Origin: Lota lota
Taxonomy: Eukaryota > Chordata > Actinopteri > Gadiformes > Lotidae
Length of the DNA: 64,000 bases
Assembly: GCA_026745465.1 (NCBI GenBank)
Contig: JACYXH010000446.1
Coordinates: 1,529,466-1,593,465 of the forward strand
Direction: 5' to 3'
Position numbers and translations under genes: made by a program. The stretch's first letter is position 1, and every line of letters begins with the position of its first letter. Under the pieces are notes generated by a model. It was given only the letters and a program-made list of their open reading frames with translations, searched no databases and was not told the origin of the DNA. Below are positions 6,201 through 9,200 of the stretch, one piece after another.

Positions 6201-9200
6201 TTATGGACAGTTGGATGGGTAGCTGGCAGGGTGAATGCGCTACTACAACAGTTGATCAATAGTAAAGTAAGCCATGTAGGATGTCTCTTTATTACAGTAC
6301 ACGCCATAATGTAGGAGATATGAATCAAATCTTCAATTCAGTCTTTTAATTTTGTTCGTTAACCTTGGTGATTTTTTATTTTTTAACCCTAACCATTTTC
6401 TTTGGTTCAGAATAAGCATTATTCCAGATTATGCTTTAATTTATGGTGGTAATTGCATACCTCAACTCAATGAAAGTGCTTTTGTTGTTAATAACACAAG
6501 ACTGAACATGAATATGAAACCAGAAAAGTCTACAAGCACGACTCATGGTACGAATAATACCCAAAGACAAGCGACTCGGCTTACCGTGTGGACGATGGGA
6601 GACTTGGTTTACCATGTGATGGGTGGGCGACACGGCTTACCATGTGAGGGCTGGGTGACATAGTGTCGGCGTCATCTTCATCCGAGAGGTCGGCCATTGG
6701 AGAGGTCCGCTCGGCGATATCCTCCGTGTCCTCCTCCCCAGTCAGGGAGGTTAGCGTGTTGCCTAGGGCGTTGAGACGCTTGCCGATGTTGGGGTCCATG
6801 TGGACGTCAATGCCGCACATTTTCCACAGCACATTCAGGGTCCACGTACCGGCGCTGTTGCTCTCTGTATAGATATGTGGAGAGGGATTGAGTGGAAAAG
6901 AAGAAAGCAAGAACATTATGAAGAGTAGTGGTTTGAAACAGTGTTTCTCAAACTGTTGGTATGTTCCTCATCTACTGATAAAACCGTTACATGTCACGTC
7001 ATTTTGTAAATAATACATTTTGTAAATAATACATTTTGTAAATAACAATGGCAATAGCTGTTCATGACGTTTCTGGTAGAAGTTTAGACTTGTTTTGCCT
7101 GACCCTGCACCTGATGCGATGTGACAAAAGCGATCAGCAAAGCTACAGAATTAACAAAATGAGCAAAGCTAGTCAAGGATTCAATGTGCACATAATACAT
7201 TGGACTTATTAAAATATACTGTACACATAAACAATACATCACAATATAGAGATTTTAAAAAGCACTCTCTACTTCTACTTCTGCATGGACACTCACTGGC
7301 CAAAATACCAGCCCATTAGGACAACATCAATGTATTCAATATAGTCATCATATAGATGGCTATTAGTTTGCTGCAAAACAAATTATGTAAGGCACGTTCT
7401 TTAGAAAGTCCTTGGAAAAAAGCTGGTATCCAGAAAGTAGTTGTGTTTTTCAACCGGTATTCCCCACAACCCTACCCTGCCTACATCTGGTTTGGCATCA
7501 TATCAAATGCAGTAAGTAAATATAATCCAAAGCCAAGGGGGATAATAGTATGCCATTATTTGCAATGCATGTATTACATTATGATCTTCCCTGTTGTGTG
7601 ATGACTGAAATGATTACATTTATGTTAACCGACATAACAGCTTTGTGTATGTTAACGTGGCCTACGTATTCTTTACGTAGGTCTAAGTGGGTCAAGCACT
7701 ACTGGGCACTGGCTTATAGTTTCCTGAGAAAGGCTGGTTTAGAAGGCACACAAATGTACACCATGCCTACTGTGAACTGACTAAAGAAGACTTGCCTGCA
7801 GAGGCTTGTCCTGTTGTCCTGGAGCATACTTCATACGTCCCATCGGGAACCACGCCTACAAGAAAGGGACATGCGCAGTGATGTTTTTAGTATTTTATCA
7901 ATGCTGATGTTTAAGACCATACACGTTCACTTCAGATAACATCAGCTCTCCAGCCGTGAGTAGTGTCACTCACATGCGTTAATGACGAGATCGCTGCGGA
8001 TCTCAGGCTTCCAGTCGTCCCAGGAGGTCTCGAATCCCTCGGCGAAGCGGATGCAAAAGTTTTTGAAGTGGCCCTTGCTGACCAGCGACTCGGAGGAACA
8101 GGCGGTGATCAGCGTGCTCTCAATGGTCAACACGAGGGCTGAGCCGGTGTCAAACTCCACCGTGTGGTTGGCCTGAGGGGCAGACTGAAGGTTGTAGCAG
8201 GTGAGGGAGCAGGTATAGTACGAGTGGGTTTGCATGAACAAACTCCTACGCCTAGATAATGATAAATTCCCATGGAGTCCCCATACCTTTACAATTCATG
8301 ATGCATAAATAATGATGTTTAAGGTTGACCAATAGCTTGGTCCTTTAAGAAGAACAGAAATGCAGCTGGTACAGCGCAATGTGTCAACATCACATGCATG
8401 CTCAGATGATGGATCAAAGACCAAGCCCTCCTGCAGCTTACCTGGGCTGCGTTGGTGATGGGTAGGCAGATGCCGAGATCGTTGACGGTCAACTGAAGGA
8501 ATAGGGTGCTGAACGCCTGCGCTGAGGTCTGTTGGATCCCCGGCAGCTTGTCCACCACCTCCTTGGTGGCCACATGGATGTCCTTATTGAGAGCCAGGCG
8601 CTGCTCATTCCAGTTGTCGTATGCTGCCTTGTAGTTCAGCCAGAAGAGTACAGCTACAGACACACGGGCACACGCACACATTTTCAGTTTATTATAACCA
8701 GGTTCTTGTAATTTAGCACATTGAAATGATTATTGAATTTAATTTTATGGAACCTCTGTCAAACGCCACTGGCTGAGCAAACACGATCGGCCTATTGAGT
8801 GTGATGAGAACCGCCTCTTTGTCGGATGAGCCACTGATCTCCTCCTGCAGGGCATTTCGCAGGCCAATCCGTGTGCGGAAGTAAGCTACCTGGTGGAAGT
8901 CTGAGCCTGCCTCCTCATACACCTGCAGAGTGGAGAAGAGATCAGTTACAAGTAATCATGCAGGGTGCACTTCGTCCACCCTGCAGCAAGTGGGGACACG
9001 CAAAAAAATGGTTTTACCACGGTTTACCACGCCTCTGCGTGGTAAACACAGCCACCACCAAACACAGGATGTGTGTTTTCACCGTCACGGCAAAAAAAAA
9101 ACATCAATATCTCCTTCTCCCTCCAATACCTAGAATTACCTGGTGCTTCACTATCTGACCCAGGGCCAGGTGGAGGTCCACTTGACACTTCCCAAACAGC

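Follow-up and report, generated by a model that had tools for sequence, protein, structure and literature searches.

What does splicing make of a conserved exon end that is followed, within the intron, by two tandem copies of its own donor? The question is raised by a window of 64,000 nucleotides from Lota lota (the whole stretch of DNA that was analysed), in which an earlier note had described a 28-bp repeat that carries a splice donor of bltp1 three times. We approach it here by placing the repeat in the gene, comparing the three donors, deriving the products of each and weighing the age of the copies against possible signs of selection.

A conserved exon end of BLTP1 lies in the first of three repeat units

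The features on which the analysis turns all lie on the minus strand, and are given below with a slash marking the exon-intron boundary.

6641..6864, minus strand: BLTP1 coding exon (exon 62 in the earlier note), 224 nt, ending in ...DEDDADTMSPSPHM at 6641; positions 361-436 of PF25040 (BLTP1_C)
6627..6654, minus strand: repeat unit 1, the 14 last exonic and 14 first intronic bases; donor 1, ATG/GTAAGC; exon end 6641, the conserved junction
6599..6626, minus strand: repeat unit 2, intronic; weak donor 2, ATG/GTAAAC; exon end 6613, which would add 28 nt
6571..6598, minus strand: repeat unit 3, intronic; donor 3, ACG/GTAAGC; exon end 6585, which would add 56 nt
3925..4055, minus strand: next BLTP1 exon, starting with EPVDPRRQ; positions 437-480 of PF25040; site of the early stops predicted for the +28 and +56 products

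Profile searches placed the exon end within the gene. The exon running from 6864 to 6641 aligned with positions 361-436 of PF25040 (E 1.1e-37; 129 bits, the cut-off being 23), and both exons joined aligned with positions 361-480 (E 8.1e-61; 205.8 bits), whereas extending the frame of the first exon into the repeat brought almost no gain (130.6 versus 129 bits). Since the two exons adjoin in the profile, the conserved junction is the one at 6641, which leaves units 2 and 3 in the intron. This continuity across 6641 bears out the claim that the outermost unit holds the conserved exon end. Twenty-one of the other minus-strand frames that were selected by eye matched PF25039 (BLTP1_M) or PF25040 above the cut-off and in order; one of these is the frame 15374-15703, and the remaining 20 make up all the frames (20/20) in further profile searches. 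The minus-strand frame 30715-31296 gave no match to the BLTP1 Pfam models. By these matches, the gene is BLTP1 (bridge-like lipid transfer protein 1). A search of the PDB returned the BLTP1 entry 9cap, presumably the structure from C. elegans, as a weak match (E 0.21) ranked below CTPR-rv4 (E 0.14), which we take to be a designed repeat protein.

Other repeats were observed in the coding part of the gene. A CCA repeat at 16120-16154 is read as a glycine run in a minus-strand coding exon of the BLTP1_M region, and within a BLTP1_M coding exon 17452-17504 holds a repeat of ~27 bp in two imperfect copies, with 77% match and 3% indels. On the plus strand, frames at 51545-53238 match the hAT dimerisation region slightly above its cut-off and DUF4371 below its own, and probably come from a DNA transposon of the hAT type, either whole or as a remnant.

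The array is a local duplication that spans the exon end

Between 6654 and 6571 on the minus strand, three 28-bp units follow one another without gaps; the exon ends fall at 6641, 6613 and 6585, as the earlier note had stated. Units 1 and 2 agree at 22/28 positions, as do units 1 and 3, and units 2 and 3 agree at 20/28; the five flanking 28-bp blocks taken in register match the array units at just 3-10 of 28. The motif CAYRTG/GTAARC, said to be present in every unit, proved right in part: all three units keep GTAA, but unit 3 reads CACACG/GTAAGC and falls outside CAYRTG. The core CACAYGGTAARCC, a pattern written after inspection of the units, has three exact matches in the window, all of them within the array, and six matches when up to two mismatches are allowed, against 4.72 expected. 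TRF placed the array at 6573-6660 with 3.1 copies and a score of 85, the best score from 40 dinucleotide shuffles of the window being 64 (period of at least 15). The window holds nine TRF rows with a period of at least 15 and a score of at least 60, which suggests that short arrays are common in these 64 kb and that the presence of one on a splice site is not remarkable by itself. A perfect 16-bp repeat of 2.9 copies, apparently non-coding and probably younger than the 28-bp array, was seen at 7000-7045, just upstream of the exon 6641..6864.

The local duplication across the exon end that had been proposed is supported. We assign a probability of about 0.7 to the reading that the array is an old junction-spanning minisatellite in which the upstream donor does the work and the two other copies are decoys. 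According to this reading, a stretch of 28 bp with the exon-intron boundary at its centre, made up of 14 bases of exon and 14 of intron, would have been duplicated twice in tandem, probably through replication slippage. The added copies would then be intronic, with no change to the protein provided that the ancestral donor at 6641 is used, and units 2 and 3 would persist as leftover decoy donors in the two remaining codon phases.

Donors 1 and 3 are of comparable predicted strength

Scored with a hand-entered donor matrix, the donors at 6641, 6613 and 6585 reached 5.07, 1.57 and 4.86, respectively, and their duplexes with the 5' end of U1, the sequence of which was likewise entered by hand, had energies of -8.0, -5.3 and -8.2 kcal/mol. 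An A at +5 makes donor 2 weak; since both other units have G at this position, donor 2 probably lost its +5 G later, and donor 3 is still close to donor 1 in strength. Of the 3765 GT sites on the window's minus strand, 29 equal or exceed the score of donor 3, a density of about 0.45 per kb with real donors included. Across the gene, a donor candidate was obtained for 21 of the 23 BLTP1 exon ends examined, and donor 1 ranks 6th of the 21; these candidates are the best sites near the ends of profile matches, some of which may be misplaced, several score below 1.5, and two of the 23 ends gave none. The exon ending at 6641 is alone in having two extra sites that score at least 1.5 within 90 nt, and four other BLTP1 exons have one. 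At the minus-strand exon end 19637, the apparent donor is weak (0.59) and a stronger site (5.09) lies 79 nt further into the intron; this exon end is possibly misplaced.

The intact upstream donor, which ranks within the top third of the candidates found for the gene, and the frequency of donor-like sites in the window are both consistent with extra donors that are fully silent and never used. Nevertheless, donor 3 roughly matches the real donor in strength and lies just 56 nt away from it, and we regard complete silence as unlikely.

The same comparability argues for the opposite outcome, namely that donor 3 takes a large share of splicing and leaves a substantial fraction of BLTP1 transcripts unproductive in Lota lota. 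In the available text of PMC6002489, the intron-proximal site is favoured between two comparable donors, for a reason described there as not known, and the stretch protected by U1 comprises 23 nt upstream and 12 nt downstream. Adjacent units, spaced by 28 nt, could hardly both hold U1, since this distance is shorter than the 35-nt protected stretch; donors 1 and 3, 56 nt apart, could be occupied together. Taken at face value, intron-proximal preference would predict substantial rather than trace use of donor 3, which is the intron-proximal site, has a comparable matrix score and forms a U1 duplex no weaker than that of donor 1; this counts against the decoy reading. Heavy loss of transcript in a conserved gene should, however, be selected against, and yet the array has diverged and is probably old. 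We hence consider a large share for donor 3 to be distinctly improbable, and expect main use of 6641 with low leakage to the decoys.

Both alternative donors would lead to early stops

The three donors occupy the three codon phases, and with the normal acceptor the frame is kept from 6641 only. A junction made from 6613 meets a stop 8 nt into the next exon, 123 nt before the end of that exon, and one made from 6585 meets a stop at 28 nt, 103 nt before the same end, in full agreement with the claim that these donors add 28 and 56 bases and shift the frame. In the available text of PMC2423196, stops count as decay candidates when they precede the last junction by more than 50 nt, and both early stops lie beyond this limit. 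That a junction exists downstream of the next exon is suggested by the donor at 3925 and by continuation of the profile to position 1938. The predicted +28 and +56 products thus share with regulated unproductive splicing switches an early stop that precedes a later junction by more than 50 nt, and transcripts from 6613 or 6585 would be expected to undergo decay, which lends support to the earlier suggestion of possible frame-shifted, decay-prone transcripts. If 6641 is the working donor and the other two are decoys, any leak to them would likely end in an early stop, degradation of the mRNA and a small loss of productive transcript. Reading through the intron from 6641 yields 19 extra codons before a stop at 6583-6581 that is formed by the TAA within the GTAA of donor 3; the extended frame had been said to stay open past the second donor and for about 20 codons, as is indeed the case.

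Rescue of the frame by another acceptor was also considered. Among the 11 AG sites found from -150 to +60 around the start of the next exon, three restore the frame on paper, those at +17 and +20 for donor 3 and that at +43 for donor 2, and six upstream sites lead to a stop whichever donor is joined. The three frame-restoring sites lie inside the exon and are preceded by 8, 8 and 7 pyrimidines of 20, respectively, compared with 10/20 at the normal acceptor, and we deem their use unlikely. The normal acceptor at 4055 has itself a poor pyrimidine tract. At 4055-4050 on the minus strand, the next exon opens with AAG/GAG; a second AG, in frame, follows after 3 nt, so that the acceptor is a tandem one, and one glutamate at the start of this exon may be optional.

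The copies are diverged and their donors bear no sign of selection

Divergence among the units amounts to 21-29% (Jukes-Cantor distances of 0.25, 0.25 and 0.36), an estimate of age that rests on 28 columns and in which half of unit 1 is coding. Such divergence between copies argues for an old event.

Retention of GTAA by all three units, together with the early stops that both alternatives yield with the normal acceptor, would suit a regulatory switch that has been kept, in which decay of the alternative products would make the amount of productive BLTP1 mRNA depend on which of the three donors is chosen. Nonetheless, invariant columns are not significantly more frequent in the donor core than elsewhere in the unit (7/9 versus 12/19; p = 0.37), and this comparison within the array gave no sign of selection on the extra donors; moreover, donor 2 scores merely 1.57. 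In a simple simulation of drift, starting from an ancestor like donor 1 and allowing 10-22% change per copy, both copies scored at least 1.5 and one at least 4.8 in 43% down to 11% of the runs, so that selection is not needed to explain the extra donors and drift accounts for their retention. The RNA fold of 6550-6680 also speaks against a switch, being no more stable than shuffled sequences (z 0.70; of 200 shuffles, 153 were equally or more stable). We therefore judge a switch very unlikely. Just as doubtful is a naturally occurring set of three competing donors, one in each codon phase, in which adjacent sites (28 nt) are spaced below the 35-nt U1-protected stretch and the outer pair (56 nt) above it, and through which the choice of 5' site would directly determine how much BLTP1 this lineage makes. 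A single copy falsely expanded during assembly or sequencing is scarcely credible, since stutter should give near-identical copies, whereas these differ at 6-8 of 28 positions.

Two further possibilities were set aside. In the lowest-energy fold of 6550-6680, units 1 and 3 are partly paired with each other, but masking of the decoys by RNA structure was rejected on the shuffling result given above. The repeat does not appear to be a dispersed element either: in the genome of the species itself (575 Mb, 867 contigs), queries of 284 bp and 90 bp each matched once, at the window itself, in a search that skips very common words and hence indicates, rather than proves, uniqueness. Relatives were sought in two collections, viral contigs and genome contigs, and none was found in those scanned.

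Comparison with known systems

Donor-bearing minisatellites have a precedent in human IFI6 (6-16, G1P3), in which, as reportedly described by Turri et al. 1995 (NAR 23:1854), a minisatellite located at an exon end provides multiple splice donors. The available part of PMC4526556 states that two downstream repeat units of IFI6 are used as donors, giving three mRNA species. The bltp1 array likewise has a donor in each tandem unit at an exon end, and is in this sense a donor minisatellite of the IFI6 type; as far as the consulted parts of the literature go, the kind of array is thus already known, with IFI6 as its precedent. It differs from IFI6, for which use of multiple donors is reported, in that it consists of three diverged 28-bp units with candidate donors, and in that both alternative donors break the frame. 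Among the matches listed for the name KIAA1109 and for the mechanism literature, no prior report of a bltp1 donor array was present, which is weak evidence of absence, and the parts of PMC11718197, PMC12210447 and PMC8724738 that were available held nothing bearing on it.

A second likeness is to the tandem alternative 5' splice sites of human genes, which, according to the accessible text of PMC2423196, also include out-of-frame neighbouring donors that often lead to early stops and decay candidates; the sites covered there, however, are mostly spaced by 4 nt, with extensions of 3-6 nt, and are not copies of a 28-bp repeat as in bltp1. A third likeness is to exon 1 of the human oestrogen receptor alpha, where the portion of PMC6002489 at hand describes comparable 5' splice sites 33 nt apart, near the length of the U1-protected stretch, as in bltp1. 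The authentic site of the receptor is, in that text, the intron-proximal one, whereas the conserved donor of bltp1 is the most upstream. The expected effect of the array on BLTP1 itself is small and the duplication is probably mostly harmless. Its value lies in offering a natural test of donor choice among comparable neighbours, a question left open in the part of PMC6002489 consulted: if the upstream donor wins despite a similar intron-proximal site, the context that lets it win could be mapped.
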